The notes: generated by a model from the letters alone, not told the origin. A stretch of DNA of 64,000 bases from Nitrospira sp. (GCA_018242685.1 JAFEBM010000027.1:1-64000), one strand, 5' to 3'. Positions 22,095 to 45,223 are shown, numbered from the stretch's first letter. Numbers and translations are program-made.

Positions 22095-23165
22095 GTGATT
22101 ACACAATGCAACTGCAATTTGTCAGGACTTCATCAATTGACACAGTCCATAGCGAGTTTCACCGAAACCGACGCCGTCGTCAAAGAGCTCTTGTCCAGAT
22201 TACCTCAACTGATTGCTGTAGATGTGGTTGGATTCGCCAGGACTAATCCCGAGCAGGGATGGACTTGGTCGTGCGATCACGATCTGAAACGGGAAGAATC
22301 GGTTCGAACGCAACTGCTGGCCACACTGGGACATAGGCCGCAACGTATGGCGTCGTCTCGCACCGTGCTGCGGCTCGTTCGCTCGGTGCATGAAATCCCC
22401 GATCGTGTATCACCTCAGATGCCGAGCAGTTCGAAACATGGGTCCGTCAGCACACATAAAGTTCCACTCGCAATCGGACCGTATGGGACCGGCATTTTAT
22501 ATCTCGAACGAGACGCCGAGCATCCCTTTACGGAACAGGAAGAACAGCTCCTCGCCATCGTCGGGGCATTACTTGCCTTAATTTTGCGCGATGCCGATTC
22601 GTACCAGCATCTGCAAGACGTGGCTTTACGAGACTCATTGGCGGGCGTCCTCAACCGCCGTGGACTCAGCACGCCGCTTGCCCGAGAATTAAAAGCTGGA
22701 TTGCGGTATGGCGTACCAGCTTGCCTGATACTCCTAGATTTGGACTTTTTTCAGACTGTAAACGATCGTCTCGGTCATACGGCAGGGGATCATGTGCTCA
22801 GAGCGGCAGCTGATCTGATACGGGCGACGGTGCGCGAAATCGATATCGTCGGTCGATACAGAGGCAATACCTTCGCAGTTGTGTTGCCTCATACGGATCG
22901 GCAGCAGGCTCGTGCCCTTGCGGAGCGGTTGCGAGATCGCATTGAACAACATCCCTTTGTGATCGAGGCCGGGCAGGTCCGTACCACGGCAAGCATCGGC
23001 TTAGCAGCGGTGCCGGATGCCGCCGTGGCTTCAATTGCGGAATGGATGATGATCGGCGAGGCCGTCCTGAATGATGCGAAGGCGCAAGGACGGAACCGCG
23101 TGGTCCTTCATGCCCCGAAACCGCCGGCAGTGGCGTGTGCTGTGGCCTTGAGTTGTGCCGCATAA
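22095..23165 (+). CDS. GAF-like/GGDEF-fold protein with degenerate active site
   Basis: 356 residues. A GAF-like sensor half (about 15-165, ending FTEQEEQLLAIVGALLALIL) precedes a diguanylate-cyclase fold (about 175-345: DSLAGVLNRRGLSTPL, ILLDLDFFQTVNDRLGHTAG). The catalytic loop at about 252-256 reads RGNTF instead of GGDEF, so both glycines/acids needed for catalysis are altered and cyclase activity is unlikely. The inhibitory-site RxxD just before it is kept (REIDIVGRY), so it may bind c-di-GMP without making it. GTG 22095 is a weak start; no good ribosome site is visible. The preceding 207 nt hold nothing recognisable. Confidence 0.85.
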   Translation: MITQCNCNLSGLHQLTQSIASFTETDAVVKELLSRLPQLIAVDVVGFARTNPEQGWTWSCDHDLKREESVRTQLLATLGHRPQRMASSRTVLRLVRSVHEIPDRVSPQMPSSSKHGSVSTHKVPLAIGPYGTGILYLERDAEHPFTEQEEQLLAIVGALLALILRDADSYQHLQDVALRDSLAGVLNRRGLSTPLARELKAGLRYGVPACLILLDLDFFQTVNDRLGHTAGDHVLRAAADLIRATVREIDIVGRYRGNTFAVVLPHTDRQQARALAERLRDRIEQHPFVIEAGQVRTTASIGLAAVPDAAVASIAEWMMIGEAVLNDAKAQGRNRVVLHAPKPPAVACAVALSCAA

Positions 23166-28345: not shown

Positions 28346-28648
28346 ATGACAGACGAACGATCGTCATCCCAGGCAAACCAGGTTGAAGGCCAGGATACCA
28401 GACATCTGGCGCCGACGGGCGATCTCACCATTTTTGAAGCGGCGGAATTTAAGGAATCTTTAGTGAAATTGTTTGCCAACGATGGATTGGTCTCGCTGGA
28501 TCTCAGCGCGGTTGCCCGAGTGGACACGGCAGCGATTCAGCTGCTGCTGGCCGCTCGCAAGCAAGGGCGAATGTTTGTAACGGGTATTTCCGACGATCTT
28601 TTGGCGAAATTGAATCAGCTGGGATTTACCGACTCGCTGAGCGAGTGA
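28346..28648 (+). CDS. STAS domain protein (anti-sigma-factor antagonist type)
   Basis: 100 residues. APTGDLTIFEAAEFKESLVK and VSLDLSAVARVDTAAIQLLL form the STAS fold. The usual phospho-Ser site (VDSxG) reads VDTAA, so a Thr occupies that position. STAS proteins bind a cognate RsbW-like kinase or act as scaffold subunits. First gene of a set followed by a CheZ-like protein, cheY and cheA; such STAS proteins also occur beside MotB in other chemotaxis clusters. Possible partner of the HATPase protein at 44324. Confidence 0.88.
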   Translation: MTDERSSSQANQVEGQDTRHLAPTGDLTIFEAAEFKESLVKLFANDGLVSLDLSAVARVDTAAIQLLLAARKQGRMFVTGISDDLLAKLNQLGFTDSLSE

Positions 28649-28735
28649 TGCGCATACCGAGGAGGCCGAGACGGTGCCGGACGGCAAGTGCGACGGGCTG
28701 CTGAAAGGTGCGAGGGGAGCCGCATCAGCAGGGCT

Positions 28736-29278
28736 ATGAACTCTTCTGGAAACCACAATAGAAGGCTCGAGCGTCCTCTTGTCGGCGATGAAACGACACT
28801 CAGAGCGCTTCTCGAACATCAACGGGCATGGGAGACCTTTGCGACTGAATCCATACATATGATTCCGGTGTTGAAGGCTCAGATGACCGCCGTGACACAG
28901 GAGACGGAGAGAGCGGCCATGGAATTATTGCTGCATCTCCGAATGCTGACGTCCTCCGAAGGAGAGGCGCCGTCAAAAGACGATTCGGTCAATCTGTCAA
29001 AAGTCGTGATGGCCATGCAGTTCCAAGACATCACGCGCCAAAAATTGGAGCATGTCGGTCAGGCGTTGGATCGGTTAAAGGCGCACCTGCAGGCTCTATT
29101 GAAAGGGCCGGGAGATGAAGAGGCCAGGAAAGAGATTGCCGCGCTGGAACTGGTTGAGCAGCACTACACCATGGAGGAGGAGCGTCGCCTGCATGCGGCG
29201 GCGTTAGGGCCGGATTACGGAGAGCCGGTGCCCATGGACATAGCGAGCAAAGAGCCCGATTCCGTCACGCTCTTTTAG
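28736..29278 (+). CDS. CheZ-like helical protein with FQDxxRQ motif
   Basis: About 180 residues, strongly helical and charged. VVMAMQFQDITRQKLEHVGQ carries the FQDxxxQ signature of the CheZ phosphatase active site, but the protein lacks the CheY-docking C-terminus (it ends EPDSVTLF). The first 25 residues are basic and disordered. ATG 28736 is preferred; an in-frame GTG at 28688 would add 16 residues. Lying between a STAS gene and a second cheY, it may be a dedicated phosphatase for that CheY. The family assignment rests on this motif and context. Confidence 0.7.
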   Translation: MNSSGNHNRRLERPLVGDETTLRALLEHQRAWETFATESIHMIPVLKAQMTAVTQETERAAMELLLHLRMLTSSEGEAPSKDDSVNLSKVVMAMQFQDITRQKLEHVGQALDRLKAHLQALLKGPGDEEARKEIAALELVEQHYTMEEERRLHAAALGPDYGEPVPMDIASKEPDSVTLF

Positions 29279-29799: not shown

Positions 29800-31965
29800 A
29801 TGAACAACGATTTCGCGCAATTTCAGGAGGCTTTCTTTGAGGAGGCCGCTGAACATCTGGCGGTGGTGGAGGAAGGCTTGTTGGAGCTGGAGCAACACCC
29901 GGGAGACGTGGACCTTCTCAATAAGATTTTTCGCTCGGCCCATTCGATCAAAGGCACAGCCGGCATGTTCGGCTTCAATGCGGTTGCGCAATTTACCCAC
30001 AAGATGGAGACGTTACTCGATTTACTGCGGAATGGGCAGAAGGCGGTTTCACCATCGATCGCGGATCTCCTCCTAAAAGCAACCGATTGTTTGAAGACGT
30101 TGATCCAATCAACGAAGTCAGGCGCGGCGGTCGACGACGAAACAGTCCAGCGACTCGCCGGAGAGTTGGCCTCGGTGAGCACATCAGACTCGCAGATGTC
30201 GGCAGCGAATGTGCATAGAAAAGTTGCGCAACCTGTTTCAGCCGAGAACGGTAATGGAGATCAGACTTATGTGATCAGGTGGACCCCGCCGGAATGGCTG
30301 TTTCGACGAGGGCTCGACCCGCTTCAAACGTTCAAGGAATTGAAAAGCATCGGTGTCCTGACTGGAATCACGCTCGATATGTCTCGACTCCCTGGTCTTG
30401 AGTGCATCGATCCGGAGACATGTTATCTGTCATGGACCATGCGACTGACAACGGGCAAGGATTTGAAGGTGATCGAGTCCACCTTCGAATTTGTCCGCGA
30501 AGACAGCATACTGTCGATTGAGCCGGTGAAGACTGCGAGTAAGGAAGAATACGCGCAACGTAATGCGGAGGCCTCAAGCGAAAAGGAGACTCCCAAACAG
30601 CTCGGGCAAATTCTCGTCGAAGGCGGCCTAGTCTCTCCCGGCGAGCTTGACCGCGCTTTGGGGCAACAAAAGCGGGTAGGCGAAATTCTCATCGAGCAAA
30701 AGGTGGTCACCCAGCAGCAGGTAGAGCAGGCGCTGCAGAAACAGCGCCAGCAGGAATCCGGCGCGCAGACCAAGAAAGCCGATGCCACCTCCATCCGCGT
30801 TGATACAGCCAAGATCGACAAGCTGATTAACTTGGTGGGCGAACTGGTGATCACCCAGTCGATGTTGAGCGATTTAGGGTCTCGATTCGAAATGAGGCAG
30901 TTGCCGGTATTATTGGAGCGCATGGTAGAACTGGAACGAAACACGCGAGAAATTCAAGAACGCGTCATGAGCATTCGCATGTTGCCCATCGGCACCGCAT
31001 TTTCCAGGTTTCCTCGGCTCGTGCGCGACCTTTCCGCCAAAACAGGCAAAAAAATCCAACTCATCCTGTCCGGAGAAGAGACGGAATTGGACAAGACAGT
31101 CATTGAGTCCATCGGCGATCCACTCACACACTTGGTACGGAACTCAGCCGATCATGGATTGGAGCCTCCAGAAGAGCGATTGGACAATAATAAGCAAGAG
31201 GTCGGGACGATACGGCTCAATGCGTTCCACGAGGGCGGAAACATCTGCATCACCGTAGAAGACGATGGGCGCGGGCTGGACCGCGATAAGATTTTGGCGA
31301 AGGCGCATAAACAGGGCTTGATCGGGGAGAACGATAAACCGACCGACGATCAAATTTGGCCGTTGATCTTCAAGCCGGGGTTTTCCACCGCGGAGAAAAT
31401 AACGGACGTCTCGGGTCGTGGTGTGGGTATGGATGTGGTGAAGCGGAACATCGAAAGCCTGGGGGGGACGGTCAGTATCAAAACCACCAAGGGTAAGGGC
31501 ACCACGTTCATCCTCAAGCTGCCGCTCACATTGGCGATCATCGACGGCATGACGGTGCGAGTCGGCAAGGAAACCTACATCGTGCCGCTGCTGTCCATAC
31601 TCGAGTCGATCCAACCCAAAGCTGAATCGATCAAAACCGTGGTGGGCAAGGGCGAACTCATTAATGTTCGAAACACGTACATCCCGATCGTGCGTTTGTA
31701 TGAAGTCTTTGCGAGCGAGCCTCAATATACAGATCCCAAGGAGGCCATTCTGCTCATCCTGGAGACGGAAGGGGAACGAGTAGCGGTGATGGTGGACGAA
31801 ATTCTTGGACAACAGCAGGTCGTCATCAAGAGCATGGAGCAGAATTTTCACAAGGTCGAAGGCATCGCCGGCGCCACGATCCTTGGAGACGGCAGGGTCG
31901 GGTTCATTGTCGATGTACGCGGCGTGCTCGAAATCGCTCGCCACAGCAGTCTGGTTGCGACGTAA
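29800..31965 (+). CDS. cheA: chemotaxis histidine kinase CheA with a GspE-N-like insert
   Basis: 721 residues. P1 Hpt domain with phospho-His at about 48 (SAHSIKGTAGMFGFNAV), a second alpha/beta region at about 150-250 (YVIRWTPPEWLFRRGLDPLQ), then an unusual stretch at about 265-320 (LGQILVEGGLVSPGELDRAL, VGEILIEQKVVTQQQVEQAL) that resembles the N-terminal MshEN/T2SSE_N repeat of secretion ATPases. P3 dimerisation (about 330-400), P4 ATPase (LTHLVRNSADHGLEPPEER, DDGRGLD, GRGVGMDVVK) and P5 CheW-like domain (about 585-715) complete it. CheA phosphorylates CheY and CheB under receptor control. Confidence 0.95.
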   Translation: MNNDFAQFQEAFFEEAAEHLAVVEEGLLELEQHPGDVDLLNKIFRSAHSIKGTAGMFGFNAVAQFTHKMETLLDLLRNGQKAVSPSIADLLLKATDCLKTLIQSTKSGAAVDDETVQRLAGELASVSTSDSQMSAANVHRKVAQPVSAENGNGDQTYVIRWTPPEWLFRRGLDPLQTFKELKSIGVLTGITLDMSRLPGLECIDPETCYLSWTMRLTTGKDLKVIESTFEFVREDSILSIEPVKTASKEEYAQRNAEASSEKETPKQLGQILVEGGLVSPGELDRALGQQKRVGEILIEQKVVTQQQVEQALQKQRQQESGAQTKKADATSIRVDTAKIDKLINLVGELVITQSMLSDLGSRFEMRQLPVLLERMVELERNTREIQERVMSIRMLPIGTAFSRFPRLVRDLSAKTGKKIQLILSGEETELDKTVIESIGDPLTHLVRNSADHGLEPPEERLDNNKQEVGTIRLNAFHEGGNICITVEDDGRGLDRDKILAKAHKQGLIGENDKPTDDQIWPLIFKPGFSTAEKITDVSGRGVGMDVVKRNIESLGGTVSIKTTKGKGTTFILKLPLTLAIIDGMTVRVGKETYIVPLLSILESIQPKAESIKTVVGKGELINVRNTYIPIVRLYEVFASEPQYTDPKEAILLILETEGERVAVMVDEILGQQQVVIKSMEQNFHKVEGIAGATILGDGRVGFIVDVRGVLEIARHSSLVAT

Positions 31966-32838: not shown

Positions 32839-32913
32839 TATGGATTTGACGGATGATGTATGGCGCGTTATCCTGCCGCCCGGTGAGCAATCACGGTTGT
32901 CAGACGACCACTG
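32839..32913 (+). other. possible IS5-type transposase N-terminal scrap
   Basis: The frame from ATG 32839 reads MDLTDDVWRVILPPGEQSR and stops at 32913. MDLTDxxWxxxxPxxP is the characteristic opening of IS5-group (DUF4096) transposases. Only about 14 residues fit, so it could be chance; it overlaps the proposed start of the PAS kinase in another frame. Confidence 0.25.
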
Positions 32914-35183
32914 AAGCCAACGTCAGTCCCCATCTAGGCTATCGCTTCCCATCTCCAAGCATTCTTGGTCCTTCGATCATAAGCCTTGTCGCATTTCTTG
33001 GCTTCAACGGCTTCTATCTTGCGGTCTCAGGGCCCGCTTCCATGACGATTCTCCACGTATCGGCCCTTGCAGCCTTTTGTCTCATGTTGGTGGGATTGTG
33101 CCGATGGATCTGCGGATTTACTGAACACAAGCAGGCAGAACAGATCTTGCGGCAAAGTGAAGCGCGATTGATCGAAGCGATTCCTCAGCAGGTTTGGACC
33201 GCCCGTCCGGACGGCACATTAGATTACGTGAACCGGCGGGTACTGGAGTATTTCGATGCTCCTGCAGAGCGACTGCTCGATTGGGGATGGCAGTCTGTGC
33301 TCCATCCCGACGACCTGCCTGCCTGTATGACGGCATGGACCGCTTCTTTGCAAACCGGGAAACCCTATGAGATTGAGTTTCGTCTCAGGCAGGCGGGCAT
33401 CGGCGCCTATCGCTGGCATCTGACCCGCGCCCTGCCGATGAGAGACGAAACAGGTCGGATCGTCAAGTGGATCGGGACGAACACCGACATCACCGGGCGC
33501 CGGCAGGTGGAAGAGGCGCTGCGGGAAAGCGAGGAACGGTTTCGGGTCCTTGCCGACACGGCGCCGGTTCTGATTTGGATGTCAGGCCTCGACAAACACG
33601 TCAGCTATTTCAATACCCGCTGGCTGGACTACACCGGCCGAACTATGGAAAAAGAGCTGGGAGGGGGGTGGGTCGAGGGAGTGCATCCTGATGACGTTGA
33701 TCGTTGCTGGAACATCTATTCGGAAGCGTTCGATCGCTGTGAGCCCTTTGAGCTGGAATATCGCTTACGAAAGGCCGATGGGCAATACGGCTGGTTGCAT
33801 GAGAGCGGTGCGCCTCGTTTCCTTCCTGGCGGAGCGTTTGCCGGCTACCATGGCGCCTGCATCGACATCACGGCGCGAAAGCTGGCGGAGGCGGAGTTGC
33901 GACGAGTGCATGATGAATTAGAGCTGCGGGTCAGTGAACGGACCGTGCAGCTGGCGTTGGCCAATCGATCTCTTCAGGACGAGATTGCCGAACGGAAACA
34001 CGTGGAGGAGGCGGTACGCGACAGCGAATTGCGGTACAAGCTGCTGACGGAGGCGACGTTCGACGGCATCGCCATTCACGATCAGGGGATCCTGGTCGAG
34101 GTGAATACCGGTTTGGAGCGGATATTCGGATACGGACCGGACGAGCTTATCGGCCGATCCCTCTGGGATCTCGTCGCCGACGAATCCCACGATTTGGTCC
34201 TGGCTAATATGAAGAACGGCGTGAACGGGCCCTACGAAGCGATGGGGCGTCGCAAAGACGGCACCACTTTCCCTGGTGAGGTCGTGGTCAGGCCCTGTCG
34301 TTATCGTGGAAAGGAAGTTCGACTGGTGGCGGGCCGTGACATTACCGAACGCAAGCACTTGGAGGCGGAGCGGTCCCGCCATACGGAAGAGCTGGAGCGT
34401 CAGATTGCCGAGCGGACTGCCGAGATCGCCAAGCTGGAATCGCAGCGGGCGCAGACGGAAAAACTGGCGGCGATGGGTCGCTTAGCCGCCGGCGTGGCGC
34501 ATGAAATCAATAACCCGATCGCCGGGATCAAGAACGCCTTTACGCTTGTGAAACAGGCGGTAGACCCCATCCACCCTCACGCCGAATTCGTCGGCATGAT
34601 CGATCGCGAGATTGCTCGCGTCGCATCCATCATCCAGAATATGTATCAACTCTATCGACCGGAGTCCGGCAAGGGGGAGACGGTGGAACTCCGGACGATG
34701 ATCAATGACATTCAGGCGTTGTTCGCCAAACGGCTGCAACAGAGTCAGCTTGTGTTGACGATTGATGTGGATCCGGGTCTCGACCGGTTCGGTGTGCCTC
34801 GAGGGGATTTACTGCAAGTCCTTCTGAATCTGGTGAATAACGCCATCGACTGTTCCAGCGAAGGAGGTACGGTCACACTGGCTATCCGCGCGGAGCCGGA
34901 TGCGATACGGATCGCCGTGTCCGATCAAGGGCCGGGCATTCTCCCAGAGCACTTCCCGCACATCTTCGACCCCTTCTTTACGACAAAGACGGGAGGAGAC
35001 CAAAAAGGCATGGGGCTGGGGCTTTCCGTCTCACAGAGCCTAGTGATGGCAATGGGCGGCAAGATCGAAGTTCAGACTCAGCCGAATGACGGATCGACGT
35101 TTTCGGTCATCTTACCGCAACACGTGGTTGTTGCTTGTGCGCAAAAGCAATCGGATATCATAAAGGAGGTCGTAACCCTATGA
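32853..35183 (+). CDS. PAS-rich sensor histidine kinase
   Basis: 776 residues as drawn. Two predicted membrane helices near 40-60 and 68-88 (IISLVAFLGFNGFYLAVSG; ILHVSALAAFCLMLVGLC) leave the rest in the cytoplasm: PAS domains at about 100-215, 228-345 and 398-505, a coiled-coil linker, HisKA with His near 549 (GRLAAGVAHEINNPIAGIKN) and HATPase_c (NLVNNAIDCSSEGG, DQGPGILPEHFPHIFDPFF, GMGLGLSVSQ). The HEINNP type often pairs with NtrC-like or orphan receivers; its stop overlaps the start of the response regulator at 35180. The start is uncertain: the first 30 residues look atypical and no ribosome site is obvious. Confidence 0.9.
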   Translation: MMYGALSCRPVSNHGCQTTTEANVSPHLGYRFPSPSILGPSIISLVAFLGFNGFYLAVSGPASMTILHVSALAAFCLMLVGLCRWICGFTEHKQAEQILRQSEARLIEAIPQQVWTARPDGTLDYVNRRVLEYFDAPAERLLDWGWQSVLHPDDLPACMTAWTASLQTGKPYEIEFRLRQAGIGAYRWHLTRALPMRDETGRIVKWIGTNTDITGRRQVEEALRESEERFRVLADTAPVLIWMSGLDKHVSYFNTRWLDYTGRTMEKELGGGWVEGVHPDDVDRCWNIYSEAFDRCEPFELEYRLRKADGQYGWLHESGAPRFLPGGAFAGYHGACIDITARKLAEAELRRVHDELELRVSERTVQLALANRSLQDEIAERKHVEEAVRDSELRYKLLTEATFDGIAIHDQGILVEVNTGLERIFGYGPDELIGRSLWDLVADESHDLVLANMKNGVNGPYEAMGRRKDGTTFPGEVVVRPCRYRGKEVRLVAGRDITERKHLEAERSRHTEELERQIAERTAEIAKLESQRAQTEKLAAMGRLAAGVAHEINNPIAGIKNAFTLVKQAVDPIHPHAEFVGMIDREIARVASIIQNMYQLYRPESGKGETVELRTMINDIQALFAKRLQQSQLVLTIDVDPGLDRFGVPRGDLLQVLLNLVNNAIDCSSEGGTVTLAIRAEPDAIRIAVSDQGPGILPEHFPHIFDPFFTTKTGGDQKGMGLGLSVSQSLVMAMGGKIEVQTQPNDGSTFSVILPQHVVVACAQKQSDIIKEVVTL

Positions 35184-35938
35184 TCACTGAGGCACCACGG
35201 GTATTGCTCGCCGACGATGAAGAAACCTTTCGTCGCTCGACGGCGAAGCTTTTGGAGCAAGAAGGGTATCGTTGCGATTGCGCACAGGACTCTCAAGAAG
35301 CCGGTACGCTCTTGACGAGTCAGCATGACGCTCTCATTACCGATATTCGCATGCCGGGCAATATGCAATTCGAATTTCTCCGGGATGTCCGCACCCGGTT
35401 CCCTTCGCTTCCGATCGTGCTCGTGACCGGTTATCCCTCGGTTCAAACCGCCGTGGAAGCACTCCGCCTGTCGTTCACGGACTATCTACTGAAGCCGGTC
35501 GACTGGCCGGATTTGCTTCGCGCGGTGGGCGAAGCGGTGAAGAAGACCAGTCTTTTGCGCATGACCACAGCGATTCGAGAAGAAGCGAGTCAACTGGTTG
35601 CTTCCTTGGAGCATGTGCAGGAGAACCTGCCTCGACTGGGAAGCGGGGTCAACGAACGGGAACTGGCCTGGTCGCTCGACGCATTTCTTTCCCAGAGTTT
35701 TGCGCAGATGGCCGTCTTCTCTTCCAGGATTCGATTGGTTCTGACGAGCCAATTGCAAGGCGGCGCCGAGGCGCCTACGGATGTGTGCCGCACGATACAA
35801 TGTCCGAGACTCAATGCCTATCGGGAAGCGCTTGAAAGTACGGTTGAGGTATTGATGCGCACCAAGCACACATCTCGATCCCAGGACCTGGGACTGTTAC
35901 GGAATAAAATCGAACAGTTGCTCCGCGAGGATGCATGA
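35180..35938 (+). CDS. response regulator with unknown helical output domain
   Basis: 252 residues from ATG 35180, fixed by AAAGGAGGT ending 9 nt upstream and by the 4-bp overlap with the kinase. The receiver (about 6-120) has VLLADDEETFRRSTAKLL, Asp in DALITDIRMPGNMQFEFL, Thr in IVLVTGYPS and Lys in DYLLKPVDWPDLL. Residues about 125-250 are helical (TAIREEASQLVASLEHVQEN, ELAWSLDAFLSQSF) with no helix-turn-helix, GGDEF or HD motif that I can see, so the output may be protein binding. Cognate partner of the PAS kinase. Confidence 0.88.
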   Translation: MITEAPRVLLADDEETFRRSTAKLLEQEGYRCDCAQDSQEAGTLLTSQHDALITDIRMPGNMQFEFLRDVRTRFPSLPIVLVTGYPSVQTAVEALRLSFTDYLLKPVDWPDLLRAVGEAVKKTSLLRMTTAIREEASQLVASLEHVQENLPRLGSGVNERELAWSLDAFLSQSFAQMAVFSSRIRLVLTSQLQGGAEAPTDVCRTIQCPRLNAYREALESTVEVLMRTKHTSRSQDLGLLRNKIEQLLREDA

Positions 35939-39297: not shown

Positions 39298-39363
39298 AGC
39301 TCTATGCATGGGTGCGTCGCGTCAGCCGACGGGGCGCCTGATTCGTCGCAGATTTTGACCGCC

Positions 39364-40182
39364 ATGGAATACGCCATTTCGACAGAGGAGTATCAACGGT
39401 TTCGCCGGCTCATCTACGACAAGAGCGGGATTTCACTTGGAGACCGAAAACAATCGTTGGTGAAGTCTCGCCTGTCCAAACGCCTGCGCGACCTCCAGTT
39501 GTCGTCGTTTTCAGAGTACTACGATTTTATCCTGGGCGATCTGAAGGGGGAAGAATTTACTCGTCTGCTGGATCTGATCTCGACCAATAAGACCGATTTC
39601 TTTCGCGAGCCGAAACATTTCAATTTCCTCCGTGACAGGATTCTTCCCGAATTGGCGGAAGACAAACGTATCCGCATCTGGTCCTCCGCCTGCTCAACCG
39701 GTGAAGAGCCCTATACGATCGCCATGACGCTCTTCGAACATGCGCAGAATCCTGACCAGTGGGATTTCAAAATACTCGCTTCGGATCTTTCAACCCGAGT
39801 ATTGGCCAAAGCAGCAGCCGGTATCTACGACGAAGATCGCTTCCGTGATGTGCCGCCGGAGGTGCTGAGGCGACATTTCTTACGTGGGCGGGGGGGCAGC
39901 GCGGGCCTCTTCAAGGTGAAACCGCACCTTGCTGCAGTGATTCAGTTTCGTCGGCTCAACTTGATGGACGGTCAGTTCCCCATCAAGAATCCTCTGGACC
40001 TGATTTTCTGCCGGAATGTCATGATCTACTTCGACCGGCCGACTCAGGAAACATTGGTCAAGAAGTTCCACCGCTATCTGAGGCCGGGCGGGTATCTCTT
40101 CATCGGGCATTCCGAGAGTCTCCAGTGGGTGAATCATGCGTTCAAATCGTTGGCCCCGACGATCTATCAGAGGGAACACTGA
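39364..40182 (+). CDS. cheR: chemotaxis receptor methyltransferase CheR
   Basis: 272 residues from ATG 39364 (292 from 39304, which coincides with the predicted transcription start). The N-terminal helical domain (EEYQRFRRLIYDKSGISLGD) is followed by the SAM-binding domain with IRIWSSACSTGEEPYTIAMT as motif I and NPLDLIFCRNVMIYFDRPTQ plus PGGYLFIGHSESL near the end. It methylates glutamates of chemoreceptors using SAM, opposing CheB. The stop is 5 nt before the cheD start. Confidence 0.94.
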   Translation: MEYAISTEEYQRFRRLIYDKSGISLGDRKQSLVKSRLSKRLRDLQLSSFSEYYDFILGDLKGEEFTRLLDLISTNKTDFFREPKHFNFLRDRILPELAEDKRIRIWSSACSTGEEPYTIAMTLFEHAQNPDQWDFKILASDLSTRVLAKAAAGIYDEDRFRDVPPEVLRRHFLRGRGGSAGLFKVKPHLAAVIQFRRLNLMDGQFPIKNPLDLIFCRNVMIYFDRPTQETLVKKFHRYLRPGGYLFIGHSESLQWVNHAFKSLAPTIYQREH

Positions 40183-40187
40183 CATTG

Positions 40188-40799
40188 ATGGCGCCGACTC
40201 AGGCCGATCCCTTCGCTCATATTCGGCGGATGCGTGACAGTCGCTTCCCGCACGACATTGCCGCGATCTTGCCGGGAGAATTCTTTGTCAGTCAGGATCC
40301 CATGATTGTGTATACCGTGCTGGGGTCCTGCGTGTCGGCTTGCATTCGTGATCCGGTCGCCGGTGTCGGCGGGATGAACCATTTTATGTTGCCGCAGCCG
40401 AAAGATGTGGCGAATGACTCATGGGGCGAGTCCACCAGATACGGCTCATACGCGATGGAGTCGCTGATCAATGACATCATCAAACGGGGAGGGAACAAAC
40501 GACGCCTGGAGATCAAGCTGTTCGGAGCAGGACGAATTTACGACGGCAGCATCGACGTGGGTTCCAGGAATGCAGAGTGGGTCTTGGACTATCTCCAAAC
40601 GGAAGGACTGACTGCTTGTAAGACGGACCTCGGGGATATCTTCCCGCGGAAAATTTACTACTTTACCGAGTCGGGACGAGTGCTGATGAAGAAGATTGAG
40701 CGTGTGAAGAATCACACGATTGCTAAACGCGAGCACGAATATGCGGCAAAGATTCAGTCGAAGGAACAAGCGCCGGTAGAAGACGTGACGTTGTTCTGA
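40188..40799 (+). CDS. cheD: chemoreceptor glutamine deamidase CheD
   Basis: 203 residues from ATG 40188. The CheD catalytic residues are visible: Cys48 in TVLGSCVSACIRDP, His65 in GGMNHFMLPQ, plus Thr43. EIKLFGAGRIYDGS and NAEWVLDYLQTEGL belong to the rest of the fold. It deamidates receptor glutamines and can regulate CheC or receptor activity. The longer frame from GTG 40125 would overlap cheR by about 60 nt and lacks family support. Confidence 0.93.
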   Translation: MAPTQADPFAHIRRMRDSRFPHDIAAILPGEFFVSQDPMIVYTVLGSCVSACIRDPVAGVGGMNHFMLPQPKDVANDSWGESTRYGSYAMESLINDIIKRGGNKRRLEIKLFGAGRIYDGSIDVGSRNAEWVLDYLQTEGLTACKTDLGDIFPRKIYYFTESGRVLMKKIERVKNHTIAKREHEYAAKIQSKEQAPVEDVTLF

Positions 40800-40871
40800 T
40801 GGAACAAGGGACCAGCGGCTTGTACACGTGATCCATGTGGATGGACTACCGGAGCCGATAACGAGGAATCG

Positions 40872-41936
40872 ATGAAGCGGATACGCGTCTTGACGGTCGA
40901 CGATTCGGCGCTTATGCGGCAAGTGCTCGCTATGTTGCTCGCGAAAGATCCGGAGATCGAAGTGGTCGGATCAGCGCCGGATCCCTATATTGCGCGCGAG
41001 AAAATTAAGGCGTTGAACCCCGACGTGCTGACACTCGACGTGGAAATGCCCAAGATGGACGGACTCACATTTTTGGAGAAGCTGATGCGCGGGCATCCGA
41101 TGCCGGTCGTGATGGTGAGTTCACTGACGGAGATCGGCTGCCAGACGACATTGCGCGCGCTGGAGCTCGGAGCGGTAGATTTTATTACCAAGCCGAAGAT
41201 CGATCTTCGGGAAGGGATGGAGGAGATCGCCCAGGATCTCATCGCCAAAGTGAAAGCGGCGGCAGTCGCGAAGGTGAAGCGTGAGGCGTTAGGCGTGAGG
41301 CGTGAGACGAACCCCCTTACCCCTTACCCCTTACCTCTTACGTCCGGGAGTGCCATGATCAAAACCACCGATACGATCATCGCCATTGGTTCTTCGACCG
41401 GTGGAACGGAGGCTGTGAAGGAGATATTGGAAAGGCTTCCGCCGCATACCCCACCCATTCTGATTACGCAGCATATGCCGGAACGATTCACGAAAACATG
41501 GGCCGACCGGCTGAACCGTCTCTGTCGGATTGCCGTCAAGGAAGCGCAAGACGGAGACAGTGTCTTGCCGGGACATGCCTTGGTCGCCCCAGGCAGCTTT
41601 CATATGAGGCTGGTCAGGAGCGGTGCGCGATACACGGTGCAGATCAACCAGGACCCACCGGTCAACCGCCACCGGCCGTCCGTGGATGTGATGTTTTCGT
41701 CCGTGGCCCGTTACGCCGGCTCCAACGCCGTCGGCGTGATTCTTACGGGGATGGGAAACGACGGCGCCAAAGAAATGTTGACGATGAAACAGGCCGGCGC
41801 CTTCACGATCGCTCAGGATGAGGCGAGTTGTGTCGTGTTCGGCATGCCGAAGGAAGCGATCAAGGCGGGAGCGGTGGATAAAGTGTTGCCGTTGAACGAT
41901 ATCGCCGGCGCCATACTGACCCACGTGAGCCGCTGA
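40872..41936 (+). CDS. cheB: chemotaxis methylesterase CheB
   Basis: 354 residues. The receiver (about 1-125) has [18 protein letters not shown] and [20 protein letters not shown]; the methylesterase domain (about 165-350) has Ser in [13 protein letters not shown], His in [13 protein letters not shown] and Asp in [13 protein letters not shown]. CheA-phosphorylated CheB removes receptor methyl groups. The linker (about 136-158) is encoded by a palindromic repeat, 41274-41342, giving an odd stretch [20 protein letters not shown]. Overlap-free start with ribosome site cgagga. Last of the cheR-cheD-cheB run. Confidence 0.95.
41274..41342 (+). repeat. palindromic low-complexity repeat inside the CheB linker
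   Basis: Left arm made of reiterated gtgaggcg/ttaggcgtgaggcgtgag units (41274-41306), right arm of reiterated ccccttac units ending cctcttacg (41311-41342). Read in reverse complement the right arm (cgtaagaggtaaggggtaag) mimics the left arm, so the whole can fold as a long imperfect hairpin. It resembles intergenic mobile palindromes but here stays in frame between two protein domains. Confidence 0.7.
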
Positions 41937-41952: not shown

Positions 41953-42291
41953 ATGCCCATGACCAGACGGGTTTGGCGCGACGCGACCGTGATACACATC
42001 GATGATGTTTTCACGCACCGCAACCGCAAGGATTTTTCTGCCGCGGTGTCGGCGTTTAGAGAGGCGGGAGGGAAGCATCTTATCGTCAATCTGCGCGAGG
42101 TGACCTTTGTAGACAGTGCCGCCTTGGGCCTCCTGGCATTGGCCTCTCAACAGCTTACGGCTGATCAAGGCAAGCTCAGCCTCGTGGATCCCCAGGGAAC
42201 CGTGAAGCAGATTTTGGAGATGGCGAATATCGATAAGATGATCGCCGTGTTTCCGACGGAGGAAGCGGCGGCTGATGCTTGGGTTGTGTGA
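41953..42291 (+). CDS. STAS domain protein (anti-sigma-factor antagonist type)
   Basis: 112 residues. HLIVNLREVTFVDSAALGLL carries the conserved DSxxLG loop with the phosphorylatable Ser; LSLVDPQGTVKQILEMANID matches the C-terminal half. In RsbV/SpoIIAA-like switches the unphosphorylated form binds an RsbW-like kinase and frees its partner. AGGAGGAG-like ribosome site (ggaggag, 41944-41950) precedes the ATG. Immediately followed by a second STAS gene and a REC-SpoIIE phosphatase. Confidence 0.9.
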   Translation: MPMTRRVWRDATVIHIDDVFTHRNRKDFSAAVSAFREAGGKHLIVNLREVTFVDSAALGLLALASQQLTADQGKLSLVDPQGTVKQILEMANIDKMIAVFPTEEAAADAWVV

Positions 42292-42339
42292 ACGGTAGAG
42301 ACGAGCCGATCTCGATTGGTCTGAACGAAGGAGGTACTC

Positions 42340-42690
42340 ATGGCGATGCACACGAAAGAACGTCCCGTCCCGAACGGTGTGGTGCTTGAGATGACGGGAG
42401 ATCTCACATACGCGAATCGCGAGCAATTCAAAACGGCCGTGGAGACGATACGACAGAAGGGCTGTCGGCATCTGATCTTGAATATGGCCGAAGTCCGATT
42501 TGTGGACAGTTCCGGGCTCGGCTTGCTGGCGCTCGTTTCCCAGAACTTCAAATTGAGTCAAGGGAAAGTGAGCATGTTGAAGCCGCAAAGTTACGTGCGG
42601 GAAATCATGAGCCTGGCCAATATTCAGAAATTGATCCCGGTCTACGACAACGAACAAGACGCGTTGGCGGGACAACAACGAGCCGCGTAG
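42340..42690 (+). CDS. STAS domain protein, second copy
   Basis: 116 residues. VVLEMTGDLTYANREQFKTA starts the fold and HLILNMAEVRFVDSSGLGLL carries the classic VDSSGLG phospho-Ser loop, closer to RsbV/SpoIIAA than its neighbour. VSMLKPQSYVREIMSLANIQ completes it. A strong ribosome site aaggagg (42329-42335) lies upstream. Likely target of the phosphatase at 42748 and the kinase-type ATPase at 44324. Confidence 0.9.
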   Translation: MAMHTKERPVPNGVVLEMTGDLTYANREQFKTAVETIRQKGCRHLILNMAEVRFVDSSGLGLLALVSQNFKLSQGKVSMLKPQSYVREIMSLANIQKLIPVYDNEQDALAGQQRAA

Positions 42691-42747
42691 GCTCCTGAGA
42701 GTGATGCGTTATTTGTGAAATCTCACAGTCGCAATTCAGGATGCTCA

Positions 42748-43944
42748 ATGCCATCACTGTCAGTTAAACACACGGCTCACGCAGCGCCGCGCACCGTGTT
42801 AGTCGTGGACGATGAGCCCACCGCACGGATGGCCTTGGCGGCTCGACTCAAACGACTCGGCTATCGAGTGATCGAAGCCGGAGATGGAAAGGCCGGGTTG
42901 GAAGCACTCCGACGTGAGCGACCCGATCTGACCATCTTGGATTGGATGATGCCGGAAATGGACGGCCCGTCTTTCTGCGAGCAGGTTCGTCAAGATCCTG
43001 AGCTGCTGTCGAGTCAAATTCTCATGATGACGAGTCAGGACCAGCCTGAACAGATCGCCGAAGGCCTGGCCCGGGGAGCAGACGACTTTCTCAGCAAAGC
43101 CGCCAGCAAGTATGAAATCACGGCCCGCGTCCAGGCCGGGATGCGCACGGCGACCTTGATCCGAAGGCTCGAGGATGTGACGGATCAAATCCGAAGAAAG
43201 CAGGAAGTCCTCGAACAGGAGCTCCAGTCCGCCGCGCGCTATGTCGAATCGTTAATCCCAGCTTCGGGGATAGTCGTGCCCGGTGTGCAGATGGTCCAGG
43301 CCTATCGGCCGTCGCTCGCCTTGGGCGGCGATCTCTTCAACATCGTTCGGTGGAGTGACGACTTTTTAGGGTTGTACCTGTTGGATGCGTCAGGCCATGG
43401 TGTCTCGCCGGCGTTACGATCAGCCTCGTTCGCAACCTTTCTGCGCAGAGACAGTTTACTGCACCATGTCGGCTCGAATGACCCGGGCGCCATCCTGACG
43501 GAAGCGAATAAGCAATTCCCTCTCACAGACAACGGGCATTACTTCACGATCGTATTCGCGAGCCTGGACCTCCGGCGCCATACCTTGTCTTACGCGACAG
43601 CCGGGCACAACGGGGCGCTGCTTCACCGTCGATCCGGTGAGACCTGTTGGATGGCCAAACCGAATTTGCCGCTTGGTTTCGATAACTCGACGACCTATGT
43701 CGCGGAGGAGCTTCCTGTCGCCCTGGATGACCGTCTATACCTGCTCAGCGACGGCCTCTACGAAGTACCGGATCCGACAGGCGAGCTATGGGGGCAAGTG
43801 CGCTTGGACGAGACGATTCGTCGGTTCGGTGATCGACCTCTAGCGGAGGTGGTGTCGGGGACCATTGCAGAGGCCATTCGATGGCAGGGGCATGAACAAT
43901 TTCCTGATGATGTGGCATTGATGGGGCTGGAAATAGCCGTGTGA
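42748..43944 (+). CDS. response regulator with SpoIIE/RsbU-type PP2C phosphatase output
   Basis: 398 residues from ATG 42748 (cagga 42737-42741 as ribosome site; GTG 42715 is an alternative). Receiver at about 15-135: VLVVDDEPTARMALAARL, DLTILDWMMPEMDGPSF, ILMMTSQDQ; the Lys position reads DDFLSKAAS. A coiled linker precedes a PP2C/SpoIIE domain (about 185-395) with metal-site Asp in LALGGDLFNIVRW, YLLDASGHGVSPAL and DRLYLLSDGLYEV, and FPDDVALMGLEI at the end. It should dephosphorylate a STAS protein under control of receiver phosphorylation, as HsbR or RsbU-type proteins do. Confidence 0.92.
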   Translation: MPSLSVKHTAHAAPRTVLVVDDEPTARMALAARLKRLGYRVIEAGDGKAGLEALRRERPDLTILDWMMPEMDGPSFCEQVRQDPELLSSQILMMTSQDQPEQIAEGLARGADDFLSKAASKYEITARVQAGMRTATLIRRLEDVTDQIRRKQEVLEQELQSAARYVESLIPASGIVVPGVQMVQAYRPSLALGGDLFNIVRWSDDFLGLYLLDASGHGVSPALRSASFATFLRRDSLLHHVGSNDPGAILTEANKQFPLTDNGHYFTIVFASLDLRRHTLSYATAGHNGALLHRRSGETCWMAKPNLPLGFDNSTTYVAEELPVALDDRLYLLSDGLYEVPDPTGELWGQVRLDETIRRFGDRPLAEVVSGTIAEAIRWQGHEQFPDDVALMGLEIAV

Positions 43945-43967
43945 TCGTTTCAAGAGGAGTGGAACCC

Positions 43968-44327
43968 ATGAACCATGGCCCGGTCTTCAGTCTCGATGAG
44001 GCTCTCGCCCGTGTCGATGATGACCGAGAGACGTTCCAGATGATGATCGAATTGCTTATGGAGCATGGTCCAAAGGACTTGGCGGATGCTCGGGCGGCAT
44101 TGGATGCCGGGAATGCGGCAGGTGTGGCACGAGCGAGCCACCGGTTGAAGGGCGCGATATTACAGTTCTGCGCCCCGGCCGCTCTTCAAGCCTGCAAAGA
44201 ATTGGAGGAGGCGGCGAAATCAGGGAACTTGGCGTATGGCGGGCAGCTCTATGCCCTGCTGGAGCAGGAATTCCAACGTCTGCTAGCCGCACTCCGTCCG
44301 ATGCGCGACAAAGGAATGGCCGCATGA
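43968..44327 (+). CDS. stand-alone Hpt (histidine phosphotransfer) protein
   Basis: 119 residues, start fixed by aagaggag at 43952-43959, nine nt before ATG 43968. An all-helical Hpt with phospho-acceptor His in VARASHRLKGAILQFCAPAA; DRETFQMMIELLMEHGPKDL is the preceding helix. It could pass phosphate between a hybrid kinase (for example the one at 2973, or others) and the receivers on either side. Its stop overlaps the next start by 4 bp. Confidence 0.9.
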   Translation: MNHGPVFSLDEALARVDDDRETFQMMIELLMEHGPKDLADARAALDAGNAAGVARASHRLKGAILQFCAPAALQACKELEEAAKSGNLAYGGQLYALLEQEFQRLLAALRPMRDKGMAA

Positions 44328-45223
44328 GTACGCTCACGACTTCTGATCATCTTTTGGTGATCGACCCCTGTCCGGACACCCAGTCGCGCATTGCCGAACA
44401 GTTGCAGGGCAGAGGGTTTTCGGTCGTTGCGGCGTCCGACCCGACCACCGCACTCACGACGATCGATATGGCCGCGCCGGACATCGTGATCACCGATCTG
44501 TTTCTTCCCGAGGCGGCGGGCTTGACGCTGCTAAAAGAATTGAAGGCCAGGCATGAACGCTGTTCGGTGATCGTCATGGCGAAGGATGCGCCGGAACTGA
44601 TGATCGTCCAAGCGCTTCGAATCGGAGCCGCCGATTATCTGCACAAGCCCGTGACCGAAGAAGAGCTGGCGCATGCGTTGCAACGCGCTCGACATCTCCT
44701 GCCGGGAGACCTCTCGGATATTCCCGGACTTTGTCGATCTGAGTATCGACTGACCGCCGATTCCAACCCGACCCATATTCCGGGGGTGATCTCTTGGCTC
44801 ATCAAAACGACGGCTTCAACCCTCCCTCCGATCCGACGGTTGCACCTTCGCGGAGCGTTACAAGAACTGCTCTTTAACGCCGTTGAACATGGGAATCTCG
44901 AGATCCAGTACCAGGAGAAACAGAAGGCTTTGATGGAAGGCCGCTATGAACAGCTGTTGGCTCACCGACTCACTCAAGTTCGGCTGAGAGATCGTCGGGT
45001 GACCATGCACGTGCTTTACGACAAGGATGCAAATAGTCTGGTGTACCGGATCACCGATGAGGGCAAGGGCTTCAAGTGGCAAAGCTTACTCGCGCGATCC
45101 CAAGAGGCCTGCAAGTCGGAAGACACGAACGGGCGAGGACTGTTTTTGGCTCGATCGTTCTTTCCCTGCTTAACGTACAATGAGCGGGGCAATGAGGTGA
45201 CGATTACGATATCGCTTGATTAG
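44324..45223 (+). CDS. REC domain fused to RsbW-like serine kinase/anti-sigma ATPase domain
   Basis: 299 residues. A receiver (about 8-125: DHLLVIDPCPDTQSRIAEQL, DIVITDLFLPEAAGLTLLKE, LHKPVTEEEL) with Pro-Cys in place of the second acidic residue precedes an HATPase_c_2 domain (about 140-298): LQELLFNAVEHGNLEIQY is the N box, YRITDEGKGFKW the G1 box, GRGLFLARSFF the G2 box. Such domains bind STAS proteins and phosphorylate their Ser. Together with the STAS pair and the SpoIIE phosphatase this completes a partner-switching circuit. No sigma factor or FlgM lies adjacent. Confidence 0.9.
   Translation: MSTLTTSDHLLVIDPCPDTQSRIAEQLQGRGFSVVAASDPTTALTTIDMAAPDIVITDLFLPEAAGLTLLKELKARHERCSVIVMAKDAPELMIVQALRIGAADYLHKPVTEEELAHALQRARHLLPGDLSDIPGLCRSEYRLTADSNPTHIPGVISWLIKTTASTLPPIRRLHLRGALQELLFNAVEHGNLEIQYQEKQKALMEGRYEQLLAHRLTQVRLRDRRVTMHVLYDKDANSLVYRITDEGKGFKWQSLLARSQEACKSEDTNGRGLFLARSFFPCLTYNERGNEVTITISLD

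Follow-up and report, generated by a model that had tools for sequence, protein, structure and literature searches.

In Pseudomonas aeruginosa, phosphorylated HptB turns on the HsbR phosphatase, and the state of HsbA sets FlgM binding (PMC5085249, PMC6482189). The Bacillus cereus RsbK-RsbY-RsbV-RsbW and Rhodobacter RbaY-RbaV-RbaW systems combine a separate phosphatase under sensor-kinase control (RbaY being a Rec-PP2C protein) with a separate HATPase kinase and a STAS antagonist (PMC3999984, PMC12848376), the Shewanella che1 CrsR-CrsA pair is a partner switch inside a chemosensory cluster (PMC9855816, PMC6482189), and Leptospira LvrC (PDB 9QIH; PMC13269768) joins a receiver to an RsbW-type (Bergerat) domain. 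Split phosphatase/kinase systems, Rec-Bergerat proteins and a partner switch in a che locus are already known; what is new in the Nitrospira locus described here is the combination of these features and its genus-wide fixation. Nitrospira are major nitrite oxidisers, and to our knowledge little has been described of their choice between swimming and attached growth, for which the module offers a candidate circuit that is found across the genus and whose parts can be tested. Literature searches on Nitrospira partner switching found no paper on this module.

We analysed a window of 64,000 nucleotides lying on contig C19 of a 4.2 Mb Nitrospira genome, in which the initial annotation had placed a five-gene partner-switching run straight after cheR-cheD-cheB. 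ORF and Pfam evidence located all five genes where it had put them, on the + strand and with the identities it had given them, as listed here together with the neighbouring features:

28346..28648, + strand: STAS0, a STAS match upstream of cheA, with VDTAAIQ
29800..31965, + strand: cheA, a possible alternative phosphodonor
39304..41936, + strand: cheR-cheD-cheB, assigned from similarity and gene order
41953..42291, + strand: STAS1, STAS Pfam match, acceptor serine in VDSAALG
42340..42690, + strand: STAS2, STAS Pfam match, with VDSSGLG
42715..43944, + strand: receiver-SpoIIE (PP2C-type) phosphatase (Rec-SpoIIE), SpoIIE and Response_reg Pfam matches, metal motifs present
43941..44327, + strand: lone Hpt phosphotransfer protein, Hpt Pfam match
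44324..45223, + strand: receiver-HATPase_c_2 (RsbW/SpoIIAB-like) kinase (Rec-HATPase), Response_reg and HATPase_c_2 Pfam matches

The module lies directly downstream of cheR (39304-40182), cheD (40125-40799) and cheB (40872-41936), with gaps of 17 bp from cheB to STAS1, 49 bp from STAS1 to STAS2 and 25 bp from STAS2 to Rec-SpoIIE, while the Hpt ORF overlaps both the Rec-SpoIIE ORF before it and the Rec-HATPase ORF after it. This spacing is operon-like, and cheRDB apparently belong to the same transcription unit; a promoter and terminator scan gave no signal above chance, and a convergent gspK, part of a type II secretion gene cluster, follows Rec-HATPase. The start codon of the phosphatase is uncertain, its receiver beginning at about residue 28, and the Hpt protein more likely starts at ATG 43968, since this gives 119 aa, a length common in relatives.

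Both STAS proteins score well over the Pfam cut-off (E-values of 1.3e-16 and 3.4e-19), and the Hpt ORF matches Pfam Hpt at 2.3e-11. The phosphatase (Response_reg, 6.6e-27) carries the SpoIIE domain (1.8e-33; PF07228, 116.5 bits) and the metal-binding aspartates of the RsbU/RsbY/SpoIIE PP2C group, and the kinase (Response_reg, 1.5e-21) combines a HATPase_c_2 match (1.2e-12; PF13581, 48.4 bits against a cut-off of 27.4) with the boxes and catalytic Glu of the RsbW/SpoIIAB family. Residues were counted over about 100 unique orthologues per component. The kinase positions E181, N185, D245 and G270, covering the N, G1 and G2 boxes and the catalytic Glu, are kept in 102/102 sequences, the five motif positions examined in the phosphatase, four being Asp, are conserved in 99-100 orthologues, and Hpt His67 is kept in 101/101, the protein itself being present in 116/120 loci searched. 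The full VDSSGLG loop had been attributed to one STAS protein, which is correct for STAS2, where Ser57 is kept in 91/91 orthologues; STAS1, with DSAALG, likewise retains the acceptor serine, DS being kept in all 18 aligned sequences.

The earlier choice of HptB-HsbR-HsbA as the closest analogue, with the HsbR functions split here, proved to be a good functional match (PMC5085249, PMC6482189). Both systems have a lone Hpt, a receiver-controlled SpoIIE/PP2C phosphatase, a HATPase kinase, a STAS protein with an acceptor serine and a flagellar or chemotaxis neighbourhood. However, HsbR is one chain, Rec-PP2C-HATPase, whereas in the window, as in the relatives examined, phosphatase and kinase each have an ORF of their own, and therefore the Nitrospira module is not a member of that system by architecture; it differs further in having a degenerate receiver on the kinase and two acceptor-serine STAS proteins. 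CrsR likewise unites an anti-sigma/kinase domain and a phosphatase domain in a single chain, with RpoS as target, and the available portions of its description do not describe a lone Hpt. In the excerpts covering the Rsb and Rba systems, neither a lone Hpt nor a che locus is described, and RbaW is presented as a HATPase protein without mention of a receiver. The LvrC receiver is canonical and is phosphorylated by LvrB (PMC13269768), and the accessible part of that report mentions no STAS partner or phosphatase.

The gene run is widely conserved. A search for the same order in relatives, suggested with the initial annotation, found it across Nitrospira and sister genera. In 36 loci, the genes either run cheR-cheD-cheB-(STAS1)-STAS2-RecSpoIIE-Hpt-RecHATPase or, where the species has another type of chemotaxis cluster, the module comes after motA-motB, as in N. 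moscoviensis (L071), L080, L084 and L088. Among 80 named loci from Nitrospira and sister genera, the phosphatase and STAS genes lie upstream of the kinase in 62/63, and cheB or motB in 57/58, of those with enough upstream DNA, and since this order is kept over dozens of species, the run is not a product of chance. A strong kinase orthologue is present in most of 79 same-genus genomes and also elsewhere in the family, identity dropping to 32% in one genome from a sister family of the same order. Conservation is highest in STAS2, with a mean identity of 87% to the window protein within the genus (65% each for kinase and Hpt), as expected for a protein with several partners; STAS1 is less conserved, and in about half the relatives it was not found. 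One genome (G210) has STAS, phosphatase and Hpt genes with no neighbouring kinase gene.

The two receivers differ sharply in their active sites, a canonical receiver being defined here as one in which two acidic residues, the Asp, the Ser/Thr and the Lys are all present. The phosphatase receiver is canonical in the window (D32, D33, D76, T106, K128) and in 97/98 orthologues, whereas all five residues occur in only 1/102 kinase orthologues, that of L089 in a sister family. The window kinase has D14, P15, D58, A86 and K108: the DPCP motif had been read as the loss of one acidic residue, and Pro15 indeed occupies DD2, but Ala86 at the Ser/Thr position brings the loss to two of the five active-site residues. 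This pattern, with DD1, Asp and Lys kept and DD2 and Ser/Thr lost, is the commonest among the orthologues (64/102, window included). Judged by residues under published review criteria (PMC12632262), the kinase receiver is a pseudo-receiver, consistent with the earlier suggestion that the kinase may be constitutive.

The initial annotation had also proposed that both arms of the switch are set by phosphorelay, and such a scheme, in which Hpt phosphorylates the receivers of phosphatase and kinase and sets the two arms reciprocally, would account for a receiver-like domain on both proteins. It would also fit the retention of Asp58 in 98/102 and of Lys in 78/102 kinase receivers, the canonical-looking receivers of the distant relative L089 and of a second-type kinase in L122, and the phosphorylation of LvrC on its receiver (PMC13269768). 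However, the loss of the metal-binding DD2 and of Ser/Thr in the window, the near absence of a complete active site among the orthologues and a receiver-less kinase in one relative (G249) make it highly unlikely, and we rejected it as the main explanation on the receiver residues; residual or non-canonical control of the kinase is possible, because Asp58 and Lys are mostly kept.

In G249, a receiver-less HATPase gene lies between motB and the STAS genes, showing at the level of gene content that a module of this kind can do with no receiver on its kinase. Its product falls in a second kinase subfamily with 100/100 support and is thus a replacement; this tree position weakens the case as proof of receiver loss from the same protein. 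The module set offers a natural comparison for an RsbW-type kinase with a canonical receiver, a pseudo-receiver or none. A further reading, and an unlikely one, is that the degenerate receiver is a working part that pairs with the phosphatase receiver or Hpt, in which case phosphorylating the phosphatase receiver would at the same time release or inhibit the kinase; if true, this would amount to a two-protein HsbR with the pseudo-receiver replacing the covalent linkage.

The predicted kinase structure contains both domains (mean pLDDT 86.6, pTM 0.59). LvrC (PDB 9QIH), which also matches the kinase by profile (E 2.3e-34), is the only solved chain among the matches listed that covers both domains (281 residues, Z 20.3, rmsd 9.3), and an rmsd of 9.3 over 281 residues suggests that the two domains are probably arranged differently, or that the model is unsure of their arrangement.

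From the components, their order and conservation, and the integrity or loss of key residues, we infer the phosphotransfers, the switch direction and the target of a partner switch that is probably, though by no means certainly, regulated only at the phosphatase, by a relay from a hybrid kinase through Hpt to the phosphatase receiver that is opposed by a constitutive kinase. A hybrid histidine kinase encoded elsewhere would pass phosphate via its own receiver to the lone Hpt, which would in turn phosphorylate the canonical receiver of Rec-SpoIIE and switch the phosphatase on. Rec-SpoIIE would then dephosphorylate STAS2 at Ser57 and STAS1 at the corresponding serine, and Rec-HATPase, as a constitutive kinase whose pseudo-receiver probably serves dimerisation or docking, would re-phosphorylate the STAS proteins. 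Their phosphorylation state would set the partner, either the kinase itself acting as an anti-sigma factor or an external one such as FlgM, with the likely outcome that sensory input is coupled to flagellar or lifestyle gene expression.

Two relatives point to the source of phosphate: L088 has a PAS-HisKA-HATPase-Rec-Rec hybrid kinase between phosphatase and Hpt, and L089 has a fusion of the Hpt domain with such a kinase, so that a hybrid kinase is the probable donor, as it is for HptB (PMC5085249). The locus itself has no constant sensor kinase, the histidine kinase-response regulator pair at 32853-35938 being variable among relatives. This pair, which consists of a PAS-containing histidine kinase and a protein with a receiver, lies between cheW and an MCP gene, and some close relatives have it while others do not.

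These hybrid-kinase arrangements also bear on whether CheA of the same locus could feed the Rec-SpoIIE receiver directly, as has been suggested for Che1 and RpoS in Shewanella, leaving Hpt in another or a reverse-flow role. The module sits right behind cheRDB, the Shewanella che1 locus contains crsR-crsA, proposed to act on RpoS (PMC9855816), and in two sister-family genomes (L121 and L122) STAS0-cheY-cheA is preceded by a Rec-SpoIIE/Rec-HATPase pair, from which it is separated in L122 by a histidine kinase gene. Yet the lone Hpt is kept almost everywhere and is linked or fused to hybrid kinases in L088 and L089, which argues for a separate relay, and we consider CheA an unlikely donor.

The third STAS gene noted earlier upstream of cheA is indeed there, as STAS0, with two genes between; its acceptor serine, however, is replaced (VDTAAIQ), and the residue after Asp is Thr or Ala in 11 aligned STAS0 sequences. 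We therefore rejected STAS0 as a third substrate in the window, where, from its motif, it is probably no longer a target of the kinase. Since STAS0 has DSS in L121 and L122 and the serine is lost in Nitrospira, it is plausibly a former partner-switch protein that has been kept near CheA to serve a different role. Between STAS0 and cheY, at 28688-29278, lies a gene for a 196-aa protein with the motif MQFQDITRQ and no Pfam match; several relatives have at this position a protein of about 370 aa that matches both the 196-aa protein and an MCP, and the 196-aa protein may be CheZ-like or one piece of a split chemoreceptor.

In the sampled family, 36/38 module-bearing genomes are flagellate against 3/9 module-less ones (Fisher p ~2e-4, uncorrected for phylogeny). 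Two genomes (G019 and G149) have the module while flagellin, FlgM and FlhA were not detected in them; in both, the contig stops at or close to the module and the main cheA is likewise absent, so that sequence is likely missing, and we dropped both as evidence against an FlgM target because the absence may stem from assembly. As annotated, no FlgM or sigma factor gene is adjacent to the module; in this genome FlgM is encoded on contig C75 and FliA on contig C11, about 2.4 kb past flhA, and in several relatives flgM and the module share a contig, some 45-60 kb apart. An RpoS-like sigma factor is also encoded, scoring 324.6 bits and so below the RpoS cut-off of 378.7. FlgM/FliA, the RpoS-like sigma factor or another protein are thus the candidate targets.

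Such conventional targets (FliA, FlgM and the RpoS-like sigma factor, all present in the genome) argue against a non-transcriptional output, in which a STAS protein, phosphorylated or not, would directly affect a diguanylate cyclase, the motor or a chemosensory protein, in the manner of SiaC-SiaD, SypA and HsbA-HsbD. That output would agree with the absence of sigma and anti-sigma genes from adjacent positions, with the placement of the module nearly always beside motB or cheB, with a GGDEF protein (22095-23165) encoded 20 kb upstream in the flagellin cluster, and with the binding of HsbD by phosphorylated HsbA in Pseudomonas (PMC5085249). However, the GGDEF gene is not adjacent, and a fliT-PilZ-flhG stretch in G178 lacks GGDEF, and we regard this output as possible but doubtful.

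Related genes occur elsewhere. G019, in which flagellin and FlhA were not detected, has a second, partly degraded STAS2-RecSpoIIE-RecHATPase copy by PAS kinase genes (L124:9272-11824). G133, a flagellate genome without the module, has a partial receiver-Hpt at a contig start followed by a receiver-GGDEF gene, a few kb from flgM (L128:2-1662). Contig C20 of G000 (L127:10224-13580) encodes a 926-aa MHYT-PAS-SpoIIE-HATPase_c_2-STAS protein beside another STAS gene, which would give the same genome a second partner switch, with all its parts in one chain. At 1947-2807, close to the window's left edge, lies an ORF that resembles an IS3-type transposase.
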